In this document: positions 24,459 through 45,037 of the stretch, piece after piece
Numbering within the stretch: position 1 is the stretch's first letter
Layout: every line of letters starts with the position of its first letter
Origin: Pseudomonadota bacterium
GTDB lineage: Bacteria > Desulfobacterota > Desulfobacteria > Desulfobacterales > Desulfolunaceae
Direction: 5' to 3'
DNA: 64,000 nt
Assembly (NCBI GenBank): GCA_018818835.1
Contig: JAHIRD010000136.1
Span: 1 to 64,000 of the forward strand
Translations under genes and position numbers: made by a program
Notes under the pieces: model-generated
The model's database searches: none
What the model was told of the DNA's origin: nothing
What the model saw: only the letters and a program-made list of their open reading frames with translations

Positions 24459-24507
24459 AAAGTCCCATATGCGGCGTTATAGTGTTTGGCCGGACGTTCG
24501 ACATACG
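24445..24507 (+). repeat. 63-bp perfect repeat, copy 1
   Basis: Identical to 54979-55041 over 63 bases, starting TGATGGCGTCGTAAAAAGTC. This copy overlaps the end of the activase gene and provides its final three sense codons and TAA stop. Similarity weakens after CATACG at 24507. Confidence 0.95.
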
Positions 24508-24571
24508 AATAAGTATGCGTTCATAACCCGTGGGGGCTCTGCGCTCTTTTCGCCTGAGCTGTCCTTTACGC

Positions 24572-24952
24572 TCACACGGCCAGGAGGTAGATGGTAAAGA
24601 GCACACCGACCAGGAGGTTGGACACACCAAAAAGAAGGAAGGCATCGTTTGGCATGTTATACCTGATTTTTGCAATAAGGCTTGAAGCGAATGCCCAATA
24701 CTTGAGGCCCATACCAAAGAAAAGAAAGGGAATGGCATGCTGGGGATGACGGTATAAATACAGGTACATGGTGCCAAATGAAAAGGCTGTGCCCACGCAA
24801 AAGAATCGGAACTGCATATAATCCCTGGGCACAATGTCCCCTGCCGGAGGGATTCCCGGATAACCAAAAGGAATACGTATAAAGATAGAGAGTAAAATCC
24901 CTATCCCGCCGATCAGGTTGAACACTCCGCCAATAAGAAGAATAGATTCCAT
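24572..24952 (-). CDS. Small polytopic membrane protein of unknown function
   Basis: A 126-residue inner-membrane protein with about four hydrophobic helices (ILLIGGVFNLIGGIGILLSI; FFCVGTAFSFGTMYLYLYR; AIPFLFFGMGLKYWAFA; FLLFGVSNLLVGVLFTIYLL). The ATG at 24952 follows AAAGGAGG at ideal spacing; a 12-residue longer form exists without a site. It is convergent with the activase gene and alone. No family recognised. Confidence 0.65.
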   Translation of the reverse strand: MESILLIGGVFNLIGGIGILLSIFIRIPFGYPGIPPAGDIVPRDYMQFRFFCVGTAFSFGTMYLYLYRHPQHAIPFLFFGMGLKYWAFASSLIAKIRYNMPNDAFLLFGVSNLLVGVLFTIYLLAV

Positions 24953-25182
24953 GGTGCCTCCTTTGAGCTTGATTATTGAGACGTTCAAAAACCGATGTCT
25001 GTCACCCTGAATAAATATTCACTATTTCAAGCCTTTCCGTCACCGTGCCGCAGGTGCACTGAAGAACACTGCTCGTGTGAAAGATTCTGACCGAACACCG
25101 ACTTTCACGGATGGCCGATGCCCACGGCCTCCGTGTTTGCCCATGCTCGTCCGTGTCAGTCCACACACTCAACCAGAAACGA

Positions 25183-26748
25183 CTAGAACATCCGCGGCCA
25201 TCCAGCCAAAAGGCGTTCACTCATGGCGTGCTTGTCCGAAGGTCCCCGGGTTCGCCTCAGGGTCCTGACCAGCTCCATACGGGTGTCTTCCGGATGAATA
25301 ATTTTGTCGATAAGATTCTGTCCGGCTGCGTCCCATGGACCGCTACCCTTGGTAAGCTCAGCCAGCATAAGCTTCTTCATGGCGTCAGCGTCTTCCATGC
25401 CTTTCATCTTCCTGCCAAAGGCCACATTCACGGCCACATGGGGGTCCATGAATGAAATATCCGCCGTGGGCCAGGCCAGAAGCTGTTCGTTTTGCATATT
25501 CCCCCCGGACATGTTGCAATGGGCCATACCGTAGGATTTCCGGATAATCACGCTGATCCGGGGCACGGTGCTTTTGTGCAGGGCCTCAATAAAGGTCATG
25601 ATCTTCAATGGCATTTTCCGCTCTTCCGCAGCCTTGCCCACCAGAAAGCCCGGCGTGTCATGGAGAAAAATCATGGGGATATGAAAGGAGTCACACAGGC
25701 AGATAAAACTCACGGCTTTTTCACAGGCCCCTGGCCCCATGGCACCGGCAATGCATGCGGGGTTGTTGGCCAGAAAGCCCACCACATGGCCATCCAGCCG
25801 AGCCAGGCAGGTGATCAGACTGCCGTCGTAATAGGGCTTCAGCTCCAGCATGGAATCCCTGTCTGCAATCATTTCGATGACCTTGTGCATATCATAAGTT
25901 TTACGCGGATTTGCAGGCACAAGATCAAAGATATGATCAAGACGTTTGTTTTCAGGCTCAGGACAGGATGTAACCGGAGGTCGTTCGTCGGAATTATTGG
26001 GAAGATAGGACAACACCTTGCGAACCAGTTCCAGGCAGTGGTCATCGTTTTCAGCAAACAAGTCGACCTGGCCTGTGACTTCGGCATGGAGCTGCCAGCC
26101 GCCCAGGTCTTCCTTGTCCGGGCATTCTCCGGTGGCCACTTCCAGTATGCTGGGGGCGGCCACGGCCATGACAGAGCCTTTGACCTGGATAACAATGTCC
26201 GAGACTGATGCTTCCCAGGTGGGGCCTCCGTAGCATTCGCCCATGATGGTTGTGATCAGGGGAACCCGTCGGTCCCGGCATGGGCCTTTGATGGGATAGG
26301 TCATACTCATCATGCCGACGGATCCCATGATATCAGGAAGACGTGCCCCGCCCCCGTCACCCAGGTGGATGCAAGGGTATCCCCTCAATGCGGCCAGATG
26401 GGCGTTTCTTATAAGTTTCTCAACGCCCTTACGGCCTCCTGCTCCAGCCAGCACGGTCACGTCATCCCCGGACACAAACACCCGTCGTTTATCGATTTCC
26501 CCATAACCCAGAACCTTGCCGTCAGCCGGTGTTTTTTCCCGGACCTCGGGGATGTCGCTGTGGGCAAGCATACCCTGCTCGTCAAAGGTACCCGGATCAA
26601 GAAGTCTCTCAATGCGCTCACGAACAGTCAAAAGACCTTTTTCATGCTGCTTGGCGATCTTTTTTTCACCACCCATGGCCCTGGCCTTGGCTTCAAGGGC
26701 GGCAAGCTTTTCGATTCCGTACAGATCATTTGCATCCTGGGTCGTCAT
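25183..26748 (-). CDS. Biotin-dependent acyl-CoA carboxylase, carboxyltransferase (beta) subunit
   Basis: A 521-residue carboxyltransferase of the PccB/MmdA/GCD-beta class, which moves CO2 between carboxybiotin and an acyl-CoA. Seen: the N-terminal RERIERLLDPGTFDE line, GDGGGARLPDIMGSVGMMSM (first acyl-CoA loop), MGECYGGPTWEAS, the second-half FLANNPACIAGAMGPGACEK and HDTPGFLVGKAAEE. The loop normally reading GG-A-A/G here reads GGARLPD. It is a single gene with no biotin carboxylase or biotin-carrier neighbour. It has low identity to the second carboxyltransferase in this window (31890-33443), so the two probably act on different acyl-CoAs. A TTGACA and a palindromic operator core lie upstream at 26820-26845. 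Confidence 0.9.
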   Translation of the reverse strand: MTTQDANDLYGIEKLAALEAKARAMGGEKKIAKQHEKGLLTVRERIERLLDPGTFDEQGMLAHSDIPEVREKTPADGKVLGYGEIDKRRVFVSGDDVTVLAGAGGRKGVEKLIRNAHLAALRGYPCIHLGDGGGARLPDIMGSVGMMSMTYPIKGPCRDRRVPLITTIMGECYGGPTWEASVSDIVIQVKGSVMAVAAPSILEVATGECPDKEDLGGWQLHAEVTGQVDLFAENDDHCLELVRKVLSYLPNNSDERPPVTSCPEPENKRLDHIFDLVPANPRKTYDMHKVIEMIADRDSMLELKPYYDGSLITCLARLDGHVVGFLANNPACIAGAMGPGACEKAVSFICLCDSFHIPMIFLHDTPGFLVGKAAEERKMPLKIMTFIEALHKSTVPRISVIIRKSYGMAHCNMSGGNMQNEQLLAWPTADISFMDPHVAVNVAFGRKMKGMEDADAMKKLMLAELTKGSGPWDAAGQNLIDKIIHPEDTRMELVRTLRRTRGPSDKHAMSERLLAGWPRMF

Positions 26749-26819
26749 GGTCTTCTATCCTCCATCATCATGGTTGCTGACTGGTTAAAAGAGAAATTAC
26801 TGTCATGACACTCAGAAGA

Positions 26820-26845
26820 TGTCAAGAATTTTGGAACGAGCGTTC
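26820..26845 (-). promoter_or_regulatory. TTGACA -35 box and adjacent GAACGAGCGTTC operator core
   Basis: On the minus strand the near-palindrome GAACGCTCGTTC (26834-26845) lies eight bases upstream of TTGACA (26820-26825), about 75 bases before the carboxyltransferase start. The same core recurs at 33607-33618 upstream of the other carboxyltransferase. The -10 match (CAGTAA at 17 bases) is weak. The pattern fits a TetR-family acyl-CoA-responsive operator, by inference. Confidence 0.45.
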
Positions 26846-26874
26846 GTTTTTTGGAAAAGAAAAAAATGGACGGA

Positions 26875-26911
26875 CACGGACAGACACGGACTATCACGGA
26901 CGAACACGGAT
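26875..26911 (-). repeat. Short inverse array of CACGGAC at 10-bp phase
   Basis: CACGGAC starts at 26875, 26885 and 26895, with a variant CACGGAT at 26905: four copies exactly 10 bases apart. It is the reverse complement of the GTCCGTG unit and faces the larger array. Confidence 0.9.
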
Positions 26912-26944
26912 ATCCAAACCATACTCCACGATTCGAATTCCCCC

Positions 26945-27139
26945 GTCCGTGCAAGTCCGTGTTCGTCCGTGTGAGTCCGTGCCCGTCCGTGTGAGTCCGT
27001 GCCCCCGTCCGTGCAAGTCCGTGCCCGTCCGTGTGAGTCCGTGCCCCCGTCCATGCAGGTCCGTGCCCGTCCGTGTGAGTCCGTGCCCCCGTCCATGCAG
27101 GTCCGTGCCCGTCCGTGTGAGTCCGTGCCCCCGTCCGTG
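26945..27139 (+). repeat. GTCCGTG heptamer array (42-bp higher-order unit)
   Basis: Seventeen GTCCGTG and two GTCCATG heptamers, separated mostly by three bases (10-bp step) and at every fourth unit by CCCCC (12-bp step), giving a 42-bp repeat of 10+10+10+12. The copies are nearly identical, so the array is probably young or homogenised. It begins eight bases after the sulP stop. There are no unique spacers, so this is not a CRISPR array. Confidence 0.95.
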
Positions 27140-27147
27140 CAAACCCA

Positions 27148-28806
27148 CTAAACAAGCCCCCGAGCACGCTCCAAGGCACTCTCAATGGACGGAAAGATGT
27201 TCTCCTCACCAAGCCTTTCCATAACGCCGGATTTTACCAGAATTTTTTTAAGCTCAGGTCGAACCCCTGACAAAAGCACCCGGGTTCCATCCTGTCTTGA
27301 TTTATCGAGCACTTCTTCAAAGGCCCGAAGTGCCGTGGCATCGATGAACAGGATATGCCTCATCCTCAAAATCAGCACAGAGGGAGTTCCTTTCACAATA
27401 CTCAAGGTGTCTTTGAACTTGTTGGCCGCTCCAAAGAAAAAAGGGCCATGAATCTCAAAGATCTGGACTCCCCGGGGTATATCTTTCGGTTGAACTCCGC
27501 GGAAATCGTTGGGATCATACGTTTCATTCATTTCGGCGCCAATCGTTTGAAACTCAGTCGTATCAGCCATACGTTTCATAAACAAAAGGGAGGACAAAAC
27601 AACACCGACTTCAATGGCCACGGTCAGGTCTACAAACACGGTCAGGCCGAAGGTACTAAGCATAACCAGAATATCGGATTTGGGTGAATGAAAAAGTTTA
27701 ATAAAATGCCGCCATTCACTCATATGGTAGGCCACTACCAGAAGGATGGCCGATAATGTGGCAAGGGGAATCAGGGAGGCCAGGGGGGCCAGGAAAAGTA
27801 GCAGCACCAGCAGTGTAAGGGCATGAACCATGCCTGCAACAGGAGAGCTGCCCCCGTTTTTGATATTGGTAGCTGTACGGGCAATGGCTCCAGTGGCCGG
27901 AATCCCTCCAAAGAGAGGGGATACCATGTTGGCAACTCCCTGGCAAACCAGTTCCATGTTTGAATTGTGGCGTGTACCGATCATGCCATCAGCCACCACC
28001 GCCGAAAGCAAGGATTCAATGGCGGCCAGTAGGGCAATGGTCAGGGCCGGTGAAAACAATTTCCGTATGGTGTGAAGATCGAATGTCGGAAGAGTCGGGG
28101 AAGGCAGAGACCGGGGGATCTCACCAAACTGGGTTCCAATGGTGGGCACATCGAGATGAAGCAGGTGAACACCTGCCGTACACACGATAATTGCAATGAT
28201 AGACCCGGGAATAATTTTATTGTATTTCTGCCATATCAGAATAATCGCAAATGACATGAGGCCGATCATACACGTCTCGGTGTTCATCATGGGAAGATCC
28301 TGGATGTAAAGAGCCATTTTCTCAATAAAAACGTTTGAGCTTGCTGTGGTGGGCAAACCCAGCAGATCTTTGATCTGAGATCCGGCTATGATCACAGCGA
28401 TGCCCGATGTAAAGCCCACGGTCATGGGATAGGGAATAAACTTGATCACCGTTCCAAGGCGGGCAAGACCCATCAAAATCAAAAGTATACCGGCCATAAA
28501 GGTGGCCGTGGCCAAGCCCTGGTATCCGAACCGATGCACAATATCGAAAACAATAACAATAAAGGCGCCTGTGGGTCCTCCGATCTGGACTTTGCTCCCG
28601 CTGAGGGCCGACACAATAAAACCCGCCACAACCGCCGTAAATATACCCTGGGCAGGTTCAACTCCCGATGCGATGGCAAAGGCAATGGCCAGGGGCAATG
28701 CCACAATCCCCACAATAACACCGGCCATAACATCCTTGGGAAGCTGCTGAATGCGGTAGCCCCTTTTTAACAGGGAAAAAAGCTCCGGAACAAACATCCT
28801 GGTCAT
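27148..28806 (-). CDS. SulP/SLC26 family sulfate permease with STAS domain
   Basis: A 552-residue inner-membrane anion transporter. The N-terminal signature is the line ALPLAIAFAIASGVEPAQGI, followed by GGPTGAFIVIV and PYPMTVGFTSGIAVII; a dozen or so helices fill about 20-410. A STAS domain occupies about 435-545 (IFEIHGPFFFGAANKF; ILRMRHILFIDATALRAFEE). In this organism import of sulfate for respiration is the natural role, although SulP proteins also carry bicarbonate or other anions. The ATG at 28806 has GGAGG upstream at five bases. It is monocistronic. The heptamer array begins just past its stop. Confidence 0.9.
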   Translation of the reverse strand: MTRMFVPELFSLLKRGYRIQQLPKDVMAGVIVGIVALPLAIAFAIASGVEPAQGIFTAVVAGFIVSALSGSKVQIGGPTGAFIVIVFDIVHRFGYQGLATATFMAGILLILMGLARLGTVIKFIPYPMTVGFTSGIAVIIAGSQIKDLLGLPTTASSNVFIEKMALYIQDLPMMNTETCMIGLMSFAIILIWQKYNKIIPGSIIAIIVCTAGVHLLHLDVPTIGTQFGEIPRSLPSPTLPTFDLHTIRKLFSPALTIALLAAIESLLSAVVADGMIGTRHNSNMELVCQGVANMVSPLFGGIPATGAIARTATNIKNGGSSPVAGMVHALTLLVLLLFLAPLASLIPLATLSAILLVVAYHMSEWRHFIKLFHSPKSDILVMLSTFGLTVFVDLTVAIEVGVVLSSLLFMKRMADTTEFQTIGAEMNETYDPNDFRGVQPKDIPRGVQIFEIHGPFFFGAANKFKDTLSIVKGTPSVLILRMRHILFIDATALRAFEEVLDKSRQDGTRVLLSGVRPELKKILVKSGVMERLGEENIFPSIESALERARGLV

Positions 28807-29015
28807 GATTCCTCCAATCATAATGAAAATAAATCATCGTTTTGGAGATAAATATCAGTGGTCGAGCGTCTTTTGAATCAAACGGAAAAGGCGGGCCAGA
28901 TGATAGGTATCTGATCGAATGAAGATATACAAAAAGTGGGTGTCCTGTCAATATCGCCTTGCTGTCGATCCAGGGCACCCGTACTCGAATATTATTTTAG
29001 AAACAGAACCATTTT

Positions 29016-30927: not shown

Positions 30928-31332
30928 CTACAGCCAGTTTTCAACGGCCAAACCGGGTATTCGAGAGAATTCCCGGACATTATCCGTAACCAGAATCAAA
31001 TTTAATGAACGAGCATGGGCCGCTATAATAAGATCATTCCACCCGATGGGTTGTCCCATCCGGTTCAGGTGTGCACGAATATCTCCATAATGTTCATCTG
31101 CGGGGGATTCAAGCGGCAGAACATCAATGACAGAAAGAATCAGTTCTGCCTGTTTTATCAATTTTTCAGAAGCCTTCTTCTTAAGTCCGAAATGGATTTC
31201 GGCAGAAGCCATAATACTTGTACACGCTGTCGCAGGCAGAATTGTTTCCAAATGATCAAAAACTGGGCCTTGGGGATTACGAATCACATGAGATATGATA
31301 TTGGTATCAAGCAGGTATCGATGGAACTCCAT
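30928..31332 (-). CDS. vapC: VapC-type toxin, PIN-domain ribonuclease
   Basis: A 134-residue PIN-domain protein. The acidic metal-binding residues are present: Asp in YLLDTNIISHV (about 9), Glu in MASAEIHFGL (about 45), Asp in IGWNDLIIAAHA (about 99) and Asp in LVTDNVREF (about 117). It should be a Mg2+-dependent RNase, neutralised by the antitoxin encoded just upstream, whose stop overlaps this start (TGATG). The target RNA is not inferable. Confidence 0.9.
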   Translation of the reverse strand: MEFHRYLLDTNIISHVIRNPQGPVFDHLETILPATACTSIMASAEIHFGLKKKASEKLIKQAELILSVIDVLPLESPADEHYGDIRAHLNRMGQPIGWNDLIIAAHARSLNLILVTDNVREFSRIPGLAVENWL

Positions 31333-41034: not shown

Positions 41035-41077
41035 CTGTCCACCCCGTCCACTCAGTCCACCCCGTCCACTCAGTCCG
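41035..41077 (+). repeat. 18-bp tandem repeat (CAGTCCACCCCGTCCACT)
   Basis: About 2.4 copies lie between the convergent arfB and queA stops. Unlike the heptamer array at 26945 it is short, but it uses the same GTCC word. Confidence 0.85.
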
Positions 41078-41086
41078 CCAAATCCA

Positions 41087-44850: not shown

Positions 44851-44962
44851 GCCCCCGGCAGGGATAAATCTTTTGCCCTTCTTCGTGCTCTTCGTGCCTC
44901 CGTGGTTAAAACGTTTTTTTATTTCGTTTCCAGGCAAAGCCTGGAAACTTAACTTTTTATTC

Positions 44963-45037
44963 ACCATGAAGTTCATGAAGGGCATGAAGTTTAGGGTGGA
45001 GATGTTTTCTTTTCTTCATGAACTTCATGCTTCATGG
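44963..45037. repeat. CACCATGAAGTTC inverted-repeat pair
   Basis: ACCATGAAGTTCATGAAG (44963-44980) faces CTTCATGAACTTCAT...CATGGT (45014-45037), whose right arm has an extra GCTTCAT unit. On both strands the word is the start of a TTCACCATGAA dispersed motif also found at 19904. Confidence 0.75.

Follow-up and report, generated by a model that had tools for sequence, protein, structure and literature searches.

In CRISPR arrays, repeats of ~20-50 bp alternate with unique spacers of about the same length. The described systems closest to the locus analysed here are of three other kinds. REPIN/RAYT systems comprise short, dispersed, gene-less palindromic hairpins that are tied to a dedicated single-gene protein encoded nearby (PMC3116915, accessible part). 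Intervening sequences of 23S rRNA genes comprise an S23-family ORF between inverted repeats, and occur in forms with and without the ORF (PMC4990558, accessible part). BrickBuilt, a dispersed intergenic MITE of Porphyromonas gingivalis, contains a minisatellite that has a 23-nt unit and no spacers (PMC4596501, accessible part). The locus analysed here is, with a probability that we put at about 0.6, an expanded, gene-less representative of a class of miniature, mobile-like elements that each have a small cognate protein; opposed heptamer arrays around widespread small genes suggest that such miniature mobile DNA has been overlooked as a class.

The window, that is, the whole 64-kb stretch of DNA that was analysed, contains the following features:

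25149..25155, plus strand: lone, exact GTCCGTG heptamer
25183..26748, minus strand: neighbouring gene for a carboxyltransferase-type protein (best NCBIfam match mmdA, under its cut-off)
26875..26911, minus strand: opposed array, GTCCGTG on the minus strand, consisting of three CACGGAC and one CACGGAT at steps of 10 bp
26912..26944, no strand: gene-free gap separating the opposed arrays
26945..27139, plus strand: main array of 19 GTCCGTG-type units, 17 of them exact, at steps of 10 and 12 bp, containing a 42-bp higher-order repeat
27148..28821, minus strand: neighbouring gene for a SulP-type transporter (TIGR00815 above cut-off)
41037..41078, plus strand: array of the related GTCCAC family, with units at 41037, 41046, 41055 and 41064, then GTCCGC, at a 9-bp step
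44881..45036, no strand: gene-less hairpins around a short TTTCCAGGC palindrome, comprising a CTTCGTG pair and arrays of CATGAAG/CTTCATG in opposed orientation

An earlier note on this DNA had described nineteen GTCCGTG heptamers in a rhythm of 10, 10, 10 and 12 bases, a small opposing array with steps of exactly 10, and a single unit near 25150. The number of units stands, with two of the nineteen (at 27049 and 27091) being GTCCATG; the 18 steps are all 10 bp (14 steps) or 12 bp (four steps), but the rhythm starts only after five initial steps of 10. The opposing array is exactly as described (CACGGAC at 26875, 26885 and 26895, CACGGAT at 26905), and the single unit is real and probably a relic. 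Exact GTCCGTG occurs 28 times on the two strands of the window vs. 5.66 times expected, a number reached in none of 100 shuffles. The main array contains, in addition to the 42-bp higher-order repeat (4.8 copies, 92% match), an 84-bp duplication (2.0 copies, 96%). Both arrays are located upstream of the carboxyltransferase-type gene, and 8 bp separate the SulP stop codon from the end of the main array. Positions 26860-27139, folded as single-stranded DNA, yield a z of -4.7, with none of 200 shuffles folding equally well. A search against RNA families returned nothing at gathering score, and its top match, a microRNA family on the stem (34.9 of 150 bits, E 0.00096), is read as chance; no rRNA matches were found within 24500-29000, and no S23-family ORF was found within the array. 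The GTCCAC array at 41037 has the unit found around a suffix gene on contig C78 of the same genome, and the repeats at 44881-45036 have the type of unit seen around two GxxExxY genes in that genome (contig C233). The window also contains a PIN-domain (VapC-type) gene (30928-31332).

The window locus belongs to a dispersed family: a genome-wide count finds 110 tandem pairs of the form GTCCGTG-N3-GTCCGTG in the 6.75-Mb genome (66 forward, 44 reverse) vs. 1 and 0 for the reversed control. The triple GTCCGTG pattern is present in one of eight genomes of the taxonomic family that were searched, the source genome, and is absent from the seven others. Successive exact heptamers in 31 genome loci plus the window are separated by 110 steps of 7-16 bp, of which 99 measure exactly 10 bp; information content is 1.45-2.00 bits at heptamer positions and 0.20-0.51 bits at the three spacer positions, many of the units in both counts being near-identical copies and hence non-independent. 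A DNA search with a 144-bp hairpin as query gave 53 match rows, some of which are pieces of one locus; several copies are >90% identical at unrelated sites, often nested within other repeats. The window array is not among the matches of this search, and the features that it has in common with them are the heptamer and the step only. A 16-bp direct repeat beside each hairpin is, by eye, identical across different sites and hence no target duplication; at hairpin copies nested in other repeats, inspection by eye likewise revealed no clear target-site duplication. Contigs C79 (L017 1-118) and C289 (L043 1-118) start with identical hairpin sequence, indicating that the assembly breaks at the repeat and that copy numbers are lower bounds. 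A second dispersed palindrome, AATCCCAGGC..GCCTGGGATT or TTTCCAGGC..GCCTGGAAA, is present beside most displayed GTCCGTG hairpin copies (upstream flanks of L045-L057). At one locus (L026 5110-6027; G000:C146), two same-direction GTCCGTG arrays flank a VapB/PIN (VapC-type) toxin-antitoxin pair.

A search of the genome with PF05635 (S23-type) identified three places, including C99:89064-89273; a 'four helix bundle suffix' gene, C99:89010-89705, lies on the same contig as the window, ~61 kb from the array. The 231-aa ORF of this gene (L282 1447-2142) scores above the cut-offs for both TIGR02436 (31.5 bits, cut-off 24) and TIGR04258, and under the cut-off for PF05635 (28.9 bits, cut-off 33.8). A 95-nt GTCCGTG unit is present at the gene in six copies: four upstream, one within the ORF and one downstream. 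The copy within the ORF is in frame, is located between the four-helix part and the suffix, and has 60% identity to the reference copy. The sequence linking the opposed arms at this locus resembles a stretch beside the dispersed hairpins, and the 144-bp hairpin query also matches the locus. With the six unit copies around and inside it, C99:89010-89705 is the most likely cognate gene of GTCCGTG in the source genome. The remaining two suffix genes of the genome have other units: GTCCAC arrays surround the gene on C78 and also occur within its ORF, and GTCCCAT arrays surround the gene on C243.

In a test looser than our other tests (1.6-kb tiles, gene included), opposed phased arrays were detected at 19 of 30 TIGR04258 loci (11 failed). 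The same test was positive for 4 of 68 far tiles and, of the 39 window tiles, for 2, one of which is the window array itself. By eye, the interdomain linker in the suffix family often consists of three-residue repeats, that is, of in-frame 9-bp arrays. On a tree of the suffix family (29 rows, 7 unlabelled, heptamer classes set by eye), the heptamer class of the 22 labelled rows requires 6 changes (minimum 5) vs. a shuffled mean of 13.4, a difference inflated by relatedness; the GTCCGTG gene shares one clade with GTCCAC genes (support 100/99). The tree omits L283 (same gene as L291) as well as L291, L295 and L312, which the motif used for extraction missed, so that the GTCCCAT gene of the source genome falls outside it. 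In one suffix locus (L290 1087-2311), the suffix-family gene lies immediately upstream of a Cas4 gene (PF01930, E 3e-25), and several further suffix loci have, by eye, a Cas4-like downstream context.

The genome contains three GxxExxY genes (PF13366/TIGR04256), two of them clearly amid CTTCGTG repeats with 9-bp steps and the third (L011) near CTCCGTG/CTTTGTG-type repeats. A public genome collection contained at least 591 stretches matching GxxExxY patterns, at least 552 of which encode relatives; the best 80, with titles from many phyla, were combined with 29 loci from the phylum sample described below and the genome's own three to yield 112 loci, or 111 after removal of L145 (short flank). 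We scored each gene by a both-flank test, which calls for two or more units of the heptamer NTYHGYG at steps of 8-11 bp, in opposed orientation, on both sides of the gene. The test was passed by 87 of the 111 GxxExxY genes vs. 3 of 2220 control positions in the same loci; 24 genes failed, including L011. With steps narrowed to 9-11 bp, 72 of 111 passed vs. 0 of 2240 controls, and 0 of 111 passed with the heptamer reversed. A heptamer-free version of the test was passed by 85 of 111 genes vs. 4 of 1110 controls. Genes for PIN proteins, a small, common family present in the same genomes, passed in 0 of 30 cases vs. 21 of 29 for the GxxExxY loci of that sample. We conclude that the arrays frame the genes and that the two arms are inverted copies of each other.

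Steps in the 87 two-armed GxxExxY loci are 9 bp (201 steps), 8 bp (73), 10 bp (38) and 11 bp (5). On a tree of 86 GxxExxY proteins, which leaves out L139 (broken frame) and the 24 loci that lack one or both arms, the heptamer consensus requires 37 changes vs. a shuffled mean of 57.4 (0 of 200 shuffles as low) and the step requires 16 vs. 26.2, both differences again being inflated by relatedness; the 11 heptamers that do not begin with C fall on one side of a single branch (1 change, support 97/98). Heptamer type tracks the protein tree, and the GxxExxY and suffix trees together show co-inheritance of arms and gene; recognition of the arms by the protein does not follow from this. Among the pairs listed in a search for residues that covary with the heptamer, Asn at residue 4 and heptamer position 6 are a possible case (p 2.7e-8, uncorrected for descent), with only 5 independent pairs on supported branches. 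The earlier note had suggested that ten-base spacing puts the heptamers on the same face of the helix and that the array could be a cooperative protein-binding platform. The 10-bp step holds for this family but is no general rule, inasmuch as GxxExxY steps are mostly 8 or 9 bp; the platform idea gains from the retention of heptamers and 10-bp step while spacers vary, and from the tracking of heptamer and spacing by the protein tree. A special status of the window locus is not supported.

Residues D67, E77 and K79 of GxxExxY are invariant in 72 sequences, and the structure model has a pLDDT of 95.6. The best VIA match of the model is to 4ic1 (Z 9.7), and its VIA neighbours include SSO0001 (4ic1), which we take to be a Cas4, together with Cas4, restriction enzymes and Holliday junction resolvases; VIA re-examines Foldseek hits, and families missing there could still be relatives. 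Foldseek with the same model gave 0 matches at E <= 0.001, and the sole sequence match to solved structures is weak (E 0.37). By PF13366, the invariant D...ExK residues, the model and the VIA match, GxxExxY proteins are of the PD-(D/E)XK type. The invariant D67, E77 and K79, the confident model and the VIA neighbours are such that GxxExxY fits a DNA-cutting enzyme, the cutting activity being a prediction.

At PF05635 loci, opposed phased arrays with steps of 7-11 bp were found in 18 of 30 cases (12 failed) vs. 4 of 600 controls, the step of 7 having been admitted after the sequences had been inspected; with steps of 8-11 bp the corresponding numbers are 4 of 30 vs. 1 of 300 and 0 of 600 controls. 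Of 198 sampled genomes of the phylum, 31 contain the triple RTCYRTG pattern, 72 contain PF13366 and 110 contain PF05635; TIGR04258 occurs in 52 of 395 sampled genomes of the phylum. PF13366 is present in 29 of the 31 RTCYRTG-bearing genomes vs. 43 of the 167 others (Fisher p 5.8e-13, uncorrected for shared descent), and in two genomes (G019 and G170) arrays are present and PF13366 is absent. Thirty fetched array loci contained one intact GxxExxY and one 29-aa remnant; thus most observed arrays are gene-less, and gene-less shells are dispersed.

A single junction in five sister species, with a histidine kinase gene on one side and a response regulator gene on the other, presents full and gene-less forms side by side. 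The junction is occupied in G091 by a 514-bp GxxExxY element whose arms are of the CTCTGCG type, in G055 by a hairpin without a gene (153 bp), in G148 by a shell containing an S23 gene (558 bp; PF05635 E 4.8e-29), and in G120 and G017 by a G148-like shell without a gene (212 and 228 bp). The comparison shows that the ORF was gained or lost inside a retained shell and that the same junction has been occupied repeatedly; it accommodates gain and loss alike.

According to the explanation that we propose, a full element would consist of a small gene between opposed arrays of a 7-bp unit at a fixed step, with heptamer and step specific to the encoded protein. An oligomer of the protein would bind its own heptamers cooperatively, the repeat distance of the oligomer setting the step, and the protein would help to copy or paste the hairpin into new intergenic sites. 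Gene-less shells would be mobilised in trans or else would be relics, and arrays would later lengthen by slippage or unequal exchange, as the 42- and 84-bp duplications of the window array may illustrate. Binding, cutting and movement by the element proteins are thus steps that we infer. The role of the four-helix proteins, for which we know of no enzyme activity, is the least certain part of the proposed mechanism.

An unrelated transposase (e.g., RAYT) could instead mobilise these hairpins as MITE- or REPIN-like DNA, with the GxxExxY, S23 and suffix genes as passengers. The vast majority of copies are indeed gene-less, as in the 30 array loci, and REPINs likewise are dispersed palindromic hairpins (PMC3116915, accessible part); heptamer and step nevertheless track the protein tree in two unrelated families, as passengers would not need to do, and we regard this alternative as unlikely, although worth keeping in view. 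We consider it distinctly improbable that the elements act at the level of RNA, as hairpins that are transcribed and then either cleaved by RNase III or copied via RNA, in the manner of 23S rRNA intervening sequences with S23 ORFs. Shells of this kind can hold S23 ORFs, the window array is able to form a stem (DNA parameters), and rRNA intervening sequences, in which inverted repeats flank an S23 ORF, are RNase III substrates (PMC4990558, accessible part); against this, GxxExxY elements enclose a protein of DNA-nuclease type, and stem formation does not need strict unit spacing.

The two other alternatives concern the window array itself. The earlier note had allowed for slippage noise, and a functionless minisatellite produced by slippage and unequal exchange would account for the 42-bp and 84-bp duplications, which do indicate growth by duplication; but if a 10-bp unit had simply slipped, its spacers would be conserved as well, whereas here heptamers stay and spacers vary, and three gene families are specifically framed by opposed arrays, so that we assign this possibility a very small chance. 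Smaller still, to the point of being barely credible, is the chance that the array is a regulatory or terminator platform serving the transporter and carboxyltransferase genes, between which it sits, 8 bp past the SulP stop codon and able to fold: the same repeat family occurs at many other sites in the genome. The earlier note's association of the array with these neighbours also fails by comparison with relatives, and local regulation of the neighbour genes was rejected: 11 SulP relatives (six with ~60% identity, one of these partial) have 0-1 heptamer each, at loci without a carboxyltransferase match.

We return to the reading of the window array as a gene-less member of a class of elements with cognate proteins. 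That class may be a categorically new form of mobile DNA, in which each element is a few hundred bases long, has heptamer-array ends with protein-specific step, and is built around one of three small proteins that are unrelated or only loosely related to each other (GxxExxY nuclease, S23 four-helix bundle, four-helix plus suffix) and that each read their own heptamer and spacing, with no known transposase, and present in many phyla. We put this broader proposal forward tentatively, at somewhat less than even odds. Proteins of the GxxExxY, S23 and suffix types are widespread, and to our knowledge no role has been established for these families; tying each family to its own phased repeat provides a testable substrate, accounts for many dispersed hairpins as a group, and suggests how rRNA intervening sequences may have originated. 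If the proposed binding is true, heptamer and step together would provide a natural series on how proteins read repeat spacing.

Comparison with known systems places the elements as follows. The enclosed proteins match curated HMMs: GxxExxY (TIGR04256/PF13366), four helix bundle (TIGR02436/PF05635) and suffix (TIGR04258). Among the open-access papers searched, we found no description linking the GxxExxY, four-helix or suffix families to opposed phased arrays; one of these papers mentions GxxExxY in passing. The window array differs from a CRISPR array in having 7-bp units, 3- or 5-bp spacers and two opposed arrays. The terminal inverted repeats that define a MITE are present, as opposed arms at 87 of 111 GxxExxY loci and as opposed arrays in the window. 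The likeness to BrickBuilt is in the array-in-MITE form only, and the accessible part of its description (PMC4596501) describes no cognate protein family. With 23S rRNA intervening sequences, as far as the accessible account of them extends, the elements share the S23 ORF family and a stem, with and without an ORF; they differ in being located outside rRNA genes and in having phased heptamer arms, the window array lying between protein genes. With REPIN/RAYT, as represented in the accessible part of its description, they share short, dispersed, gene-less palindromic hairpins, namely the copies of the GTCCGTG family, together with a dedicated protein from one nearby gene, and the window array is also able to form a stem; they differ in having ends that are fixed-step arrays of 7-bp units and in enclosing proteins of PD-(D/E)XK type or four-helix type.
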